Virus record (IMG/VR): IMGVR_UViG_3300036770_005131
Span: 1-64,000 of that record
Reading direction: 5' to 3' (one strand)
DNA from: a virus
Length of the DNA stretch: 64,000 nucleotides
The position numbers and the translations under genes were made by a program. This document shows, piece after piece, positions 32,160 to 47,147 of this stretch (within the stretch, counting starts at the first letter, position 1; each line of letters opens with the position of its first letter). The notes under the pieces were generated by a model. That model saw nothing but the letters and a program-made list of their open reading frames with translations. It did not search any database and had not been told where the DNA came from.

Positions 32160-32235
32160 GGGCAAGTAGCATAATGGATAATGCAGCATCCTTCTAAGAT
32201 GTCGATTGGGGGTTCGAGTCCCTCCTTGCCTGCCA
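32160..32235 (+). tRNA. tRNA-Arg(TCT)
   Basis: Acceptor GGGCAAG/CTTGCCT, anticodon loop CTTCTAA, T arm GGGGG-TTCGAGT-CCCTC. CCA is encoded at 32233-32235. It reads AGA, a codon favoured by this AT-rich phage. Confidence 0.9.
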
Positions 32236-32308
32236 GGGGAATTAGCTCAGTTGGTAGAGCAGCGCCTTTGCAAGGCGAAGGTCAGGAGTTCAAGTCTCCT
32301 ATTCTCCA
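32236..32308 (+). tRNA. tRNA-Ala(TGC)
   Basis: Acceptor GGGGAAT/ATTCTCC, anticodon loop TTTGCAA, TTCAAGT T loop. It starts one base after the CCA of tRNA-Arg. Confidence 0.92.
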
Positions 32309-32309
32309 C

Positions 32310-32338
32310 TTGACAATCTAGGTTAAATACCTTATGAT
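32310..32338 (+). promoter_or_regulatory. Promoter TTGACA-17-TATGAT between tRNAs
   Basis: The -35 at 32310-32315 begins one base after tRNA-Ala; the -10 is at 32333-32338, so it transcribes tRNA-Gly and tRNA-Asn separately. Confidence 0.65.
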
Positions 32339-32348
32339 TGTCTCAAAT

Positions 32349-32420
32349 GCGGGGTTAGTTCAGTGGTAGAACGCTATCCTTCCAAGTTAGATGTCGTCGG
32401 TTCAAATCCGATACCCCGCT
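32349..32420 (+). tRNA. tRNA-Gly(TCC)
   Basis: Acceptor GCGGGGT/ACCCCGC, anticodon loop CTTCCAA, T loop TTCAAAT. It reads GGA. Confidence 0.92.
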
Positions 32421-32440
32421 CTGAATCTTTTGGTTCTCAT

Positions 32441-32512
32441 TCCCCTGTAGCTCAGCGGCAGAGCTATCGGCTGTTAACCGATTGGTCGTAGGTTCAAATC
32501 CTACCGGGGGAG
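32441..32512 (+). tRNA. tRNA-Asn(GTT)
   Basis: Acceptor TCCCCTG/CGGGGGA, anticodon loop CTGTTAA, T loop TTCAAAT. Confidence 0.92.
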
Positions 32513-32513
32513 T

Positions 32514-32521
32514 TATAAATA
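32514..32521 (+). promoter_or_regulatory. Late promoter motif TATAAATA
   Basis: Exact motif just after tRNA-Asn, 22 bases before the next ORF. Confidence 0.65.
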
Positions 32522-32543
32522 CTCGGAGAAATATGAAGATATC

Positions 32544-32804
32544 ATGGAAAACTTACGAATACGGTGTAGATCCTGTAATAAGGAAATAGAAGGTCATCCA
32601 GCAAAAACCATTTCTTGTGGTTGTCCTAACATGGCAACTATAAGAAATAATACAAATATAACTGCACTTGACCTGTCTCAGGTAGTAATGTTAAATTCGC
32701 CAAATAAGAAGCAAAAGAATAATGTCCTTACAAATGAGGATATTATGTGGCAAGAAGCAAGACGACAAAGAAAAGTTCGTCGTTTAGATTTTGAAGTCCG
32801 TTGA
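32544..32804 (+). CDS. Small Cys-rich, possibly zinc-binding protein
   Basis: 86 aa. CRSCNKE and SCGCPN provide four cysteines in a zinc-ribbon-like arrangement; the C-terminus is basic (ARRQRKVRR). Possibly DNA or RNA binding. It lies inside the tRNA cluster under a late promoter motif. No firm family. Confidence 0.55.
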   Translation: MENLRIRCRSCNKEIEGHPAKTISCGCPNMATIRNNTNITALDLSQVVMLNSPNKKQKNNVLTNEDIMWQEARRQRKVRRLDFEVR

Positions 32805-32815
32805 GGACTTTTATT

Positions 32816-32902
32816 GGTAGCGTGGCAGAGTCCGGTTTATTGCGCTTGTCTTGAAAACAAGTGAGGGTAAAACCTCCGTTGGTTCAAATCCAACCGCTAC
32901 CG
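32816..32902 (+). tRNA. tRNA-Ser(TGA)
   Basis: Acceptor GGTAGCG/CGCTACC, anticodon loop CTTGAAA, long variable arm TGAGGGTAAAACCTCCG typical of type II tRNAs. Confidence 0.92.
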
Positions 32903-32967
32903 TTTTAGTAAAATGGAACACCAATTTAACAATTTCTTCAACAGTGTTACTAAATGAACATATTTTG

Positions 32968-42611: not shown

Positions 42612-43403
42612 ATGGATAAAAATAAATCAGCGTATAAACTTAAAAACTTTGGGCCAATATATTACTTAAATCTTGATGGGCAACCAGAAAGAAAAGAGTA
42701 TATGGAAGAACAATTTAAATATTGGGAAATTGAAAACTATACTCGCATCTCTGCATATGATGGAAGAGATGATGATTTGAGTGATATTATAAAAGGTAGA
42801 TATCCAGATTTTATGACTTCTGGTGAAGTTGGTTGTGTGACATCTCACCTAAAGGCAATTCAGCATTGGTATACAACTTCAAACTCTCCATATGCTGTAA
42901 TTATGGAGGATGATTGTAGTCTTGAGACAGTAAAGTATTGGAACTTTGCTTGGAGTGATTTAGTTGCTAGAGCACCTTATGCTTGGGATGTTTTGCAACT
43001 TGCAATTATTTGTACTGGAGATATTGTTGTTCCTATTCACAATCGGTTTGTGAATGATTTTTCAACTGCTTGCTATGTAATTACAAAACACCATGCTGAA
43101 AAACTAATCCGAAATCATTGTAGGGATGGTAAATATAAACTTGATAATGGTGTAAAACCCAGAGCAGTTGCTGACGATTTGATCTATAATTCTGGTTGTA
43201 CTTATGCTTCTCCATTACTTCTTTATAAAACTGAACTTGGATCTACTATTCACCCAGATCATGTAGACATGTTCCATCGCAATAGTTATAATGCTATATT
43301 TAATTTTTGGCAAACACAAGGGCATGAATTGACTATAGAACAAATTACAAACTACGATCCATATCTTGGTAGAATTACCGAACCTTCTCAAAAAACCACT
43401 TGA
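42612..43403 (+). CDS. Glycosyltransferase family 25 (LPS-type)
   Basis: 263 aa. IYYLNLDGQPERKEYM, SGEVGCVTSHLKAIQHW and YAVIMEDDCS are typical GT25 motifs. Last gene of the cassette; a promoter for the porin gene overlaps its stop. Confidence 0.85.
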   Translation: MDKNKSAYKLKNFGPIYYLNLDGQPERKEYMEEQFKYWEIENYTRISAYDGRDDDLSDIIKGRYPDFMTSGEVGCVTSHLKAIQHWYTTSNSPYAVIMEDDCSLETVKYWNFAWSDLVARAPYAWDVLQLAIICTGDIVVPIHNRFVNDFSTACYVITKHHAEKLIRNHCRDGKYKLDNGVKPRAVADDLIYNSGCTYASPLLLYKTELGSTIHPDHVDMFHRNSYNAIFNFWQTQGHELTIEQITNYDPYLGRITEPSQKTT

Positions 43404-43428: not shown

Positions 43429-43496
43429 AAATATTGAGTTGAGAATTCAGTTGTAATTCTTAACACTTGTCGTTTAGTACTAAAACAAACACATAT

Positions 43497-44960
43497 ATGA
43501 AACTTTTTCAACAACTGATGCTTGCACCTGTTGCTGTTGGTCTGATTGCTCCCGCTGCGACTGCCGCAGAACTCAATATGGAAGGAGTAAATCAGTATTC
43601 AACCTCAGAGCAGGTTACAAGTATCAACCAATTCTCTGATGTTCAACCTACCGATTGGGCATATCAGGCACTCAGCAATCTTGTAGAGCGTTATGGTTGT
43701 GTAGCAGGTTATCCTAACGGCACCTTTGGTGGTGGTAAGGCAATGACCCGTTATGAAGCAGCAGCACTCTTCAATGCTTGCCTTGACCGTGTAACTGAAG
43801 TCACCGATGAAATTCGTAAACTTCAGGAAGAATTCAAGGCAGAACTGATTGTTCTTCGTGCCCGTGTAGATGGTCTAGAAGCAAAGGTTGGTGTGCTTGA
43901 AGCACAGCAATTCTCCACCACTACCAAACTGAATGGTGAGGTAAACTTTGTTCTCGGTGGTGTTCCTGGTTACGAAAGTCGTGGAACTAAGGCAGATGGA
44001 ACCGCATTCAACTATGATGTTCGTCTGAACTTTGATACCTCATTTACTGGTCGTGACCTACTCCGCACCCGTCTTCGTGCTGGTAACTTCAGTGAACTAC
44101 CTTTTGGTTCAAGTTCTTCCTTATTCAAACTGGATAAGGCAGAAACCACTGGTGATACTGTAGAACTTGACCGTATCTACTACCAGTTCCCTGTAGGTGA
44201 CGACTTCACCGTAACCGTTGGTCCAAAGGTTCGTAACACCGAAATGGCGTGGGTTCCTTCAGCATACCGTTCAGAAATCCTTGATTTCTTCACTACTGCT
44301 GGTGCTCCTGGTGTTTATAACAAGGCAACTGGTGCTGGTGTAGGTGTTCAGTATGAAAGCAATGGTTTTGTTGCTGGTCTAAACTATGTTGCTCAGGATG
44401 GTGATAGCACCGAAACTGGTATGTTCTCATCCGATGGTGCCCTGAACCTGATGGCACAACTTGGTTATCGTCAGGATAATTGGGGTGTCGGTGTTGGTTA
44501 TCGTTACGGTTCCGAAGGCACCCGTCCTCGCACCTACAACGGTTTCCAAGGTGCTAATGGCACTCTGCTAGGTAATCAGGATTCCAATAGTGTTGCTGTA
44601 AATGCTTACTGGCGTCCTACCGAAACTGGTATCATTCCTTCAGTCAGTGCTGGTTATGGTTATAATGCCGTAAGTGGTCGCACTGGTGAAACTGACGCAA
44701 CCGATTCACAATCTTGGTTCGTTGGTCTTCAGTGGGATGACGCATTCGTTGCTGGTAATGCTGCTGGTGTTGCTGTGGGTCAACCCGCAAATGCCGAAGG
44801 TCTTGCTAACGATGCCCTGATGCTTGAGTTCTTCTACAAGTATCAAGTTACCGACAATATCAGCATCACTCCTGCTATCTTCTATGTAAGCAACGATGCT
44901 GCCCAACGTGGTAATGCCTCTGAGTGGGGTGGTGTAATCCAAACCAAGTTCAAGTTCTGA
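43497..44960 (+). CDS. Cyanobacterial-type SLH-domain outer-membrane porin
   Basis: 487 aa from ATG 43497. A signal peptide MKLFQQLMLAPVAVGL...ATAAE, then an SLH domain (FSDVQPTDWAYQALSNLVE, RYGCVAGYPNGTFGGG, MTRYEAAALFNACL), a coiled coil (about 95-135), and a beta-barrel with alternating strands ending in VIQTKFKF (C-terminal Phe). This is the Som/OprB-like porin layout of cyanobacterial outer membranes. It is intact, with its own promoter, and so probably expressed during infection. Likely host-derived. Confidence 0.88.
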   Translation: MKLFQQLMLAPVAVGLIAPAATAAELNMEGVNQYSTSEQVTSINQFSDVQPTDWAYQALSNLVERYGCVAGYPNGTFGGGKAMTRYEAAALFNACLDRVTEVTDEIRKLQEEFKAELIVLRARVDGLEAKVGVLEAQQFSTTTKLNGEVNFVLGGVPGYESRGTKADGTAFNYDVRLNFDTSFTGRDLLRTRLRAGNFSELPFGSSSSLFKLDKAETTGDTVELDRIYYQFPVGDDFTVTVGPKVRNTEMAWVPSAYRSEILDFFTTAGAPGVYNKATGAGVGVQYESNGFVAGLNYVAQDGDSTETGMFSSDGALNLMAQLGYRQDNWGVGVGYRYGSEGTRPRTYNGFQGANGTLLGNQDSNSVAVNAYWRPTETGIIPSVSAGYGYNAVSGRTGETDATDSQSWFVGLQWDDAFVAGNAAGVAVGQPANAEGLANDALMLEFFYKYQVTDNISITPAIFYVSNDAAQRGNASEWGGVIQTKFKF

Positions 44961-45966: not shown

Positions 45967-46674
45967 ATGCAGATAGACCTTCATAACTTTTTTAAGTTTT
46001 ATGATGAAAAAAATCCAAAGCACGTTGCCGCAGTAGAGCAACTTGAAAAGGATTTGCTTGCGAAAGCATCAGACCTAATGCAGGATGAGGCAAGTTGGGT
46101 AATTACTTATAGAACACCTAATACTCCTCCACAACCTCAAGGGGTTCTAAATGTTCCTTGGTTTCCACAAACAGATAATTATACTCAACCAGATAGAACC
46201 TGCAATTCTTCTTCCTGTGCGATGTGCCTTGAGTATTTCAAACCAGGCACACTCGTAGGACCGCAGGGAGATGACGCATATATTCGCAAGATTTTCGCAG
46301 TGGGTGATACGACAGACCATTCGGTTCAAACCCGTGTTCTACAGTCTTACGGAGTTTCTTCTGAGTTTAGGTATAATCTTTCATTTGATGACCTTGACCG
46401 TGAGTTATCTGCTGGGAAACCTGTTTGTATTGGGATACTCCATCGTGGTCCTTTATCTTCTCCTACTGGGGGTCACATACTTGTAGTTAGAGGTAAGACC
46501 GCATCAGGAGATTATGTTGTAAATGACCCTTATGGTTCTCTCAACGATGGTTATACTGGACCTGTAACTAATGGTAGAAGTGCCGTTTATAAGAGGTCTG
46601 ATTTAGTCCGTAGATGGACTGTGGACGGTCCTACTACTGGATGGGGTCGTGTATTTACTGCTGTAAAAAAGTAG
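45967..46674 (+). CDS. C39-like cysteine peptidase, zero frame of a frameshifted endolysin
   Basis: 235 aa. The catalytic Cys region is TCNSSSCAMCLEYF, the His GGHILVVRG, followed by VVNDPYG; this is the papain-like C39_2 pattern. It probably cleaves peptides in the cell wall. The gene ends GTA AAA AAG TAG, and a GH24 lysozyme lies in the -1 frame without a convincing start of its own. A frameshift would give a peptidase-lysozyme fusion of about 393 aa. Confidence 0.8.
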   Translation: MQIDLHNFFKFYDEKNPKHVAAVEQLEKDLLAKASDLMQDEASWVITYRTPNTPPQPQGVLNVPWFPQTDNYTQPDRTCNSSSCAMCLEYFKPGTLVGPQGDDAYIRKIFAVGDTTDHSVQTRVLQSYGVSSEFRYNLSFDDLDRELSAGKPVCIGILHRGPLSSPTGGHILVVRGKTASGDYVVNDPYGSLNDGYTGPVTNGRSAVYKRSDLVRRWTVDGPTTGWGRVFTAVKK

Positions 46675-47147
46675 AAGAGGCATCACAAATTCCTCAAAGT
46701 GGTGTCTCTTTAATTAAAGAATTTGAGGATTTCAGTCCAACCGCATACTACGACCCTCATACGGGAAATTTACCTATCACTATTGGATGGGGAAGTACTC
46801 GTAATTTTGATGGAAAACCATTCAAGATTACTGATACGATTACTCTTTATCAGGCAAATCTTTTATTTGAACACCAGATTAAAACGGAGTTTCTCCCAGC
46901 ACTCAGAAGAATTCCTTACTGGGATGAGATGAATGAAAATCAAAGAGGAGCACTTCTTTCTTTTATCTATAACTTAGGTGCTGATTTTTATGGTGAGAAA
47001 GGATTTGATACTATCTCTAGAGTATTAAGAGAAAGAAGATGGGATGAAGTTCCTAAGACATTAGAACTTTATAGAAATCCTGGTTCTAATGTTGAGGCAG
47101 GATTACTGAGAAGAAGAAAGGTTGAGGGTGCCTTATGGAAATCATAA
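46614..47147 (+). CDS. GH24 (T4-type) lysozyme, probably reached by -1 frameshift
   Basis: The lysozyme domain runs from about 46671. LIKEFEDFSPTAYYDPHTG holds the catalytic Glu; ITIGWGST, LLSFIYNLGADFY and GLLRRRKVEGALW follow. The only upstream ATG in this frame (46614) lies in 60 bases overlapping the peptidase C-terminus and would add a meaningless 19-residue leader. I therefore read it as the -1 product of the gene at 45967. The 46614 start is given only as the open frame. Confidence 0.8.
   Translation: MDCGRSYYWMGSCIYCCKKVEEASQIPQSGVSLIKEFEDFSPTAYYDPHTGNLPITIGWGSTRNFDGKPFKITDTITLYQANLLFEHQIKTEFLPALRRIPYWDEMNENQRGALLSFIYNLGADFYGEKGFDTISRVLRERRWDEVPKTLELYRNPGSNVEAGLLRRRKVEGALWKS
46665..46710 (+). 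promoter_or_regulatory. Programmed -1 frameshift signal
   Basis: Slippery A AAA AAG at 46665-46671 in zero frame, immediately followed by TAG. A hairpin of 11 bp (46676-46686 with 46699-46709, two G-U pairs, 12-base loop) starts 4 bases downstream, extendable by one A-T pair. This is the layout of the dnaX-type signal. Confidence 0.75.

Follow-up and report, generated by a model that had tools for sequence, protein, structure and literature searches.

The stretch of DNA analysed here (the window) comprises 64,000 nt, positions 1 to 64,000 of IMG/VR record IMGVR_UViG_3300036770_005131, a 106.6-kb uncultivated virus on a single contig that carries psbA and tRNA genes and is related to cyanophages of the Kyanoviridae. 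On its forward strand, an open reading frame at 45967–46674 encodes a predicted short product of 235 aa. Approximately the first 55 residues (45967–46131) form an N-terminal module recognised by tblastn matches to relatives; the module is common to the separate module–lysozyme genes that relatives carry, and it shares 46–56% identity (tblastn) with the beginning of the second gene in phages with a two-gene arrangement. The domain that follows (46147–46533) is predicted to be a Peptidase_C39_2 domain, of the C39-type papain-like peptidases, from its profile match (Pfam PF13529, E = 1e-11) and its conserved C, H and D positions, and the modelled fold of a relative matches papain-like peptidases.

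How does this frame end, and what lies beyond it? As the sequence-only reading had described, the peptidase gene closes with GTA AAA AAG TAG: the slippery heptamer A_AAA_AAG occupies the 0 frame at 46665–46671, and the stop codon TAG (46672–46674) lies directly 3′ of it. From the heptamer, the −1 frame (46665–47147) reads KK-VEEASQIPQS...WKS across the junction AVKK-VEEASQ and stays open to 47147, encoding a linker and a GH24 lysozyme domain that matches Phage_lysozyme (Pfam PF00959, E = 9e-18) with the catalytic E, D and T positions present. The claim that this domain has no good start codon held up: no start codon was found between the 0-frame stop and the lysozyme core of the window, and the −1-frame ATGs at 46614 and 46641 are both within the peptidase gene, and no Shine-Dalgarno-like sequence precedes either at the customary spacing. 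Elsewhere in the window, a gene at 43467–44960 encodes an SLH and OprB-family porin of the cyanobacterial outer-membrane type (Pfam OprB, 4.5e-18; SLH, 1.8e-9), and adjoining it at 42612–43403 is a gene for a family 25 glycosyltransferase (LPS-type).

Conservation of the junction in relatives

C39 loci were gathered by homology scans (the best 80 matches of each) and were selected blind to the junction; most are metagenomic. Among the matches listed, there were at least 192 non-redundant C39 loci, and 87 of them have a lysozyme that continues in the −1 frame past the stop. Of these 87, 16 possess a start codon overlapping the stop (ATGA or GTGA, 4 nt); 11 of the 16 keep the heptamer and five have no slip site. 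In the remaining 71, which have no stop-overlapping start, an X_XXY_YYZ heptamer is found near the stop without exception: A_AAA_AAG in 69, T_TTT_TTT in one (S-CAM7) and C_CCA_AAG in one (L345). The 0-frame stop follows immediately in 66 of the 71. By comparison, the heptamer is present in none of 81 control C39 genes in which the lysozyme is separate, upstream or absent (71/71 versus 0/81; Fisher p = 4e-45, a value too extreme because the sequences are related). At less than 80% nucleotide identity, 38 frameshift loci are left. Within the same 71 loci, A_AAA_AAG occurs in frame nowhere else (0 in ~26,000 codons), and the junction Lys-Lys pair is encoded by AAA AAG in 69 of 69 cases, where about 15 would be expected. 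This comparison supports the earlier proposal of a programmed frameshift yielding the peptidase alone and a peptidase–lysozyme fusion, and the arrangement clearly recurs in relatives, cultured isolates included.

Two of these isolates are instructive. In S-PM2, the peptidase gene ends GCA AAA AAG TAA, the lysozyme in the −1 frame has no ATG, GTG or TTG, and the lysin has been annotated as a truncated ORF of 219 nt; the record of an S-PM2 deletion mutant is identical at the junction. In S-CAM7, the sequence is GTT TTT TTT CCA CAG TAG, with a T8 run that is the same in three isolates, and the annotated lysin is again truncated. A third isolate, S-SRM01, keeps A_AAA_AAG and has an ATGA overlap start as well. 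As a separate observation, S-CRM01 (L008, 1327–2636) shows lysozyme matches in two reading frames inside the domain, reflecting a frameshift, decay or a sequencing error.

Could the two frames be an artefact of sequencing or assembly in the homopolymer, the true gene having seven A and one continuous ORF? In-frame relatives with seven A do exist, but they are few (L053, L222, L427 and L428), whereas the phase of A_AAA_AAG and the stop are maintained at 69 loci. We deduced that the loss of a base does not account for the two frames, because six A, a G and then a stop are kept in dozens of loci, in S-PM2 twice, and because C_CCA_AAG and the G_GGA_AAG junctions described below contain no A run. 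The T8 run of S-CAM7, identical in three isolates, the covarying hairpin and the immediate 0-frame stop likewise argue against such an error, which we consider extremely improbable.

It might also be proposed that the lysozyme is initiated independently, at the ATG at 46614 or 46641 or at a non-standard start, or by termination-reinitiation. The two upstream ATGs of the window are compatible with this, as are the ATGA/GTGA overlaps of 16 relatives, in five of which the slip site is gone. However, 37 of the 71 loci, S-PM2 and S-CAM7 included, have no ATG, GTG or TTG in the −1 frame, there is no conserved Shine-Dalgarno sequence, and internal initiation leaves the heptamer, its Lys codons, the immediate stop and the covarying hairpin unexplained; we therefore regard it as very unlikely. 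Relatives with separately started lysozyme genes, which the sequence-only reading had held would speak against frameshifting, are indeed found (S-SRM01 with its ATGA, and the two-gene phages), and there the junction slip site is dispensable or missing from the peptidase gene.

Both frames are under purifying selection: over 69 relatives, the median dN/dS is 0.14 for the 0-frame peptidase and 0.21 for the −1-frame lysozyme, in which the active-site residues are kept. On a tree of the C39 domain, the arrangement changes ~28 times, at least nine of these changes being forced by well-supported branches, which points to repeated gain, loss or exchange. Nine of the surveyed loci are in-frame fusions without a slip site; a structure model of an in-frame fusion (pLDDT 74.6, moderate, and informative for fold identity only) matches GH24 endolysins and papain-like peptidases. 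A model of the N-terminal module with lysozyme was set aside (pLDDT 46.6). C39-domain relatives were also noted in cyanobacterial genomes (L367–L376, e.g., the Arthrospira PCC 9108 chromosome, L371); most of the chromosomal relatives are without the N-terminal module, their matches beginning at aa 51–61. One locus filed under a Euryarchaeota MAG (L366) is probably a misbinned virus, because it has the cyanophage two-gene lysis arrangement.

The downstream hairpin

Immediately after the stop, the arms AAGAGGCATCAC (46675–46686) and GTGGTGTCTCTT (46699–46710) are predicted by folding to form a stem of 12 bp (13 with one G-U pair) at −17.4 kcal/mol (z = −4.96), which none of 200 shuffles equalled. 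The sequence-only reading had anticipated this stem but placed it 4 bases later; its first base is in fact directly after the stop, 3 nt past the heptamer, a trivial difference. Over the 71 junctions, the mean hairpin z is −3.7, with 65 below −2, and the spacer between heptamer and hairpin is 3–8 nt in 70. The stem sequence varies by lineage (GACATCAC/GTGGTGTC; GCCAACTAA/TTAGTTGGC; AGTTCTATTCC/GGAATAGAACT) and is complementary within each. Arms from the same locus pair at −15.5 kcal/mol, as against −8.1 ± 0.5 for permuted arms, and none of 10,000 permutations reaches the observed pairing. Moreover, in a 19-member group both bases have changed in four stem pairs; 98.4% of cells are paired there, against 30–45% when the arms are slid. 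The hairpin is, as far as comparison can tell, maintained by compensatory change.

These features also bear on whether the polymerase, rather than the ribosome, might slip on the A6 run. Transcriptional slippage is known in Thermus thermophilus dnaX (PMC5009743), and the T8 run of S-CAM7 would suit it. Nevertheless, the runs stay at six A plus G and show no lengthening, and the exact 0-frame phase and the downstream hairpin suit ribosomes. We judge transcriptional slippage to be highly improbable.

Modular and mirror-image forms of the cassette

The joint described in the sequence-only reading, a C39 peptidase and a GH24 lysozyme, proved correct but incomplete, being one member of a wider modular family. 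First, a GH19-type endolysin domain takes the place of GH24 in L297 and L349, behind the same peptidase, heptamer, stop and hairpin (PHROG endolysin, E = 9e-36; Pfam GH19 slightly under the cut-off). Second, the peptidase may be missing altogether. In L430, a short ORF for the N-terminal module ends AGA AAA AAG TAA and is followed by a hairpin, and GH19, lacking any start codon, occupies the −1 frame. Joints with the N-terminal module only were found at 14 loci with G_GGA_AAG and one with A_AAA_AAG; the 14 read from the module to CPHCGKPLGK and a stop, with the lysozyme in the −1 frame. Internal initiation is possible in most G_GGA_AAG loci, because most have ATGs just 5′ of the lysozyme core. 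The short products of L131, L135, L158, L170 and relatives end in the conserved CPHCGKPLGK, a zinc-ribbon-like CxxC half-motif, right at the slip site.

Third, the orientation can be reversed. Phages with the two-gene arrangement, such as DSL-LC02 and DSL-LC03, also carry module–glycosidase genes in a single frame. Where these genes have a Lys-Lys pair, it is encoded as A_AAA_AAG in 68 of 68 (17 expected by codon usage), and in 60 of the 68 a −1 stop comes after exactly one codon, where about 17 would be expected from synonymous choices. This stop is kept although the amino acids vary (TS, SS, GN, TN, SN, HS). GC-rich hairpins lie downstream but are weaker (mean z −1.7). Many of these loci are closely related; at <85% identity, 21 of 27 retain the −1 stop. 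Among isolates, the mirror-image form is represented by DSL-LC02, DSL-LC03 and ACG-2014f, the last an in-frame fusion with A_AAA_AAG and a −1-frame TGA one codon further. Here the shift appears to yield the short product, the opposite of the window. What would remain constant across both orientations is a pair of products, one short and one long, with a common N-terminal module.

Discussion

How might one gene give two lysis enzymes? We propose, with a probability of roughly 0.94, that programmed −1 ribosomal frameshifting makes the endolysin products of the window. At the slip site, AAA AAG would be decoded by tRNA-Lys(UUU), and the hairpin immediately downstream would slow the ribosomes. Some would then slip back by one base, re-reading A_AAA_AAG as AAA AAA, and continue into the lysozyme to produce a fusion of the N-terminal module, C39 and GH24 of about 394 aa; the others would stop at TAG and release the 235-aa module–C39 endopeptidase. 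What comparison provides is the slip site, the stop, the covariation of the hairpin, the missing starts and the selection on the −1 frame; slippage in the cell and its efficiency are inferred.

With respect to the tRNA, among the tRNA genes of a draft genome of the picocyanobacterium Synechococcus lacustris the only tRNA-Lys found was UUU, with no CUU isoacceptor, and S-PM2 encodes its own tRNA-Lys(UUU). No tRNA-Lys gene was found in the partial virus record of the window; five tRNA genes (Arg, Ala, Gly, Asn, Ser) are clustered at 32160–32903, and four more (Leu, Ile, Leu, Thr) are located at about 86.3–87.0 kb of the record. The arrangement resembles bacterial dnaX (tau/gamma) in its A_AAA_AAG, its downstream hairpin and its two predicted products with a common N-terminus, and possibly in the use of a single tRNA-Lys(UUU). 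It differs in encoding a viral lysis enzyme, in using several heptamers and in occurring in both orientations within one gene family. E. coli dnaX has an upstream Shine-Dalgarno stimulator, whereas the window has none ~10 nt 5′ of its slip site, where 46648–46664 (CGTGTATTTACTGCTGT) has no purine-rich stretch. Both orientations are known for dnaX across bacteria; the mirror genes correspond to the E. coli arrangement, and the window to the reverse, which is known in fewer bacteria (PMC5009743).

Why should two products be made? Selection probably keeps both a short and a long form built on the common N-terminal module, some related phages shifting to the short one. The products would cooperate at lysis, most likely as a mixed complex or through the dose ratio of endopeptidase to muramidase. 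A mixed complex is suggested because, in Gram-positive two-polypeptide endolysins, the short form can join the full-length one (PMC9430671); the shift may set the short-to-long ratio for such a complex. Alternatively, the shift may be real and the short product functionless by itself, so that the cassette would only lower the amount of fusion. The existence of slip-less in-frame fusions is consistent with that alternative, which is nevertheless hard to square with the mirror genes, 60 of 68 of which would shift to the short product though the long one is already made; lowering the long product is a formal possibility there, and on balance we find a functionless short form unlikely. The nine slip-less fusions and the few seven-A fusions do argue against a universal need for both products, and in phages with plain fusions the long form alone may suffice or the second product may have been lost.

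Returning to two functional products, we offer tentatively, at somewhat below even odds, a family-wide reading: that these are recoded cyanophage endolysins with a fixed short-to-long ratio in a mixed lysis complex (short, the module with or without C39; long, the module with a glycosidase), the signal having been recruited repeatedly in both orientations and GH24 and GH19 having been swapped.

Endolysins of phages on Gram-negative hosts are mostly single globular enzymes (PMC9430671). In Lys170, LysIME-EF1, CTP1L and LysP7951, a single endolysin gene yields two polypeptides, one long and one short, which sometimes form a heteromer (PMC9430671, PMC4777826). These enzymes, from phages of Gram-positive hosts, use an internal start and share a C-terminus, whereas the cyanophage cassette, with a cyanobacterial host, would use a frameshift and share the N-terminus; instead of arising from an internal in-frame start, the predicted short form here ends at a 0-frame or −1 stop. 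The tail-assembly chaperone G/GT, a late phage gene, likewise undergoes programmed −1 frameshifting, kept in long-tailed phages except T4 (PMC5009743), but it serves structural assembly rather than lysis. The sequence-only reading knew of no such recoding for a cyanophage endolysin, and we found no prior report in the open-access literature searched; for phages in general this does not extend, since the lysin of a Lactococcus phage, encoded by two overlapping genes, appears in a citation of genes known to contain a frameshift (reference 35 of PMC10885494). The likeness, a lysin spanning overlapping genes in an unrelated host, is drawn from that citation.

Cyanophages of marine and freshwater Synechococcus thus appear to make two versions of a lysis enzyme from one gene through a −1 slip, and more than 100 relatives retain the slip signals despite reshuffled enzyme parts. 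Because the joint escapes gene finders, public annotations truncate the lysozyme of S-PM2 and S-CAM7. Phages may arrive at this product pair by shifting to the long form or to the short one, by using an overlapping start, by carrying two genes or by simply fusing the parts; this constitutes a natural comparative experiment, so that whether two subunits are needed, and in what ratio, is directly testable. Reliance on recoding for the endolysin appears to extend over a large group of cyanophages, and this would bear on how abundant photosynthetic hosts are lysed.
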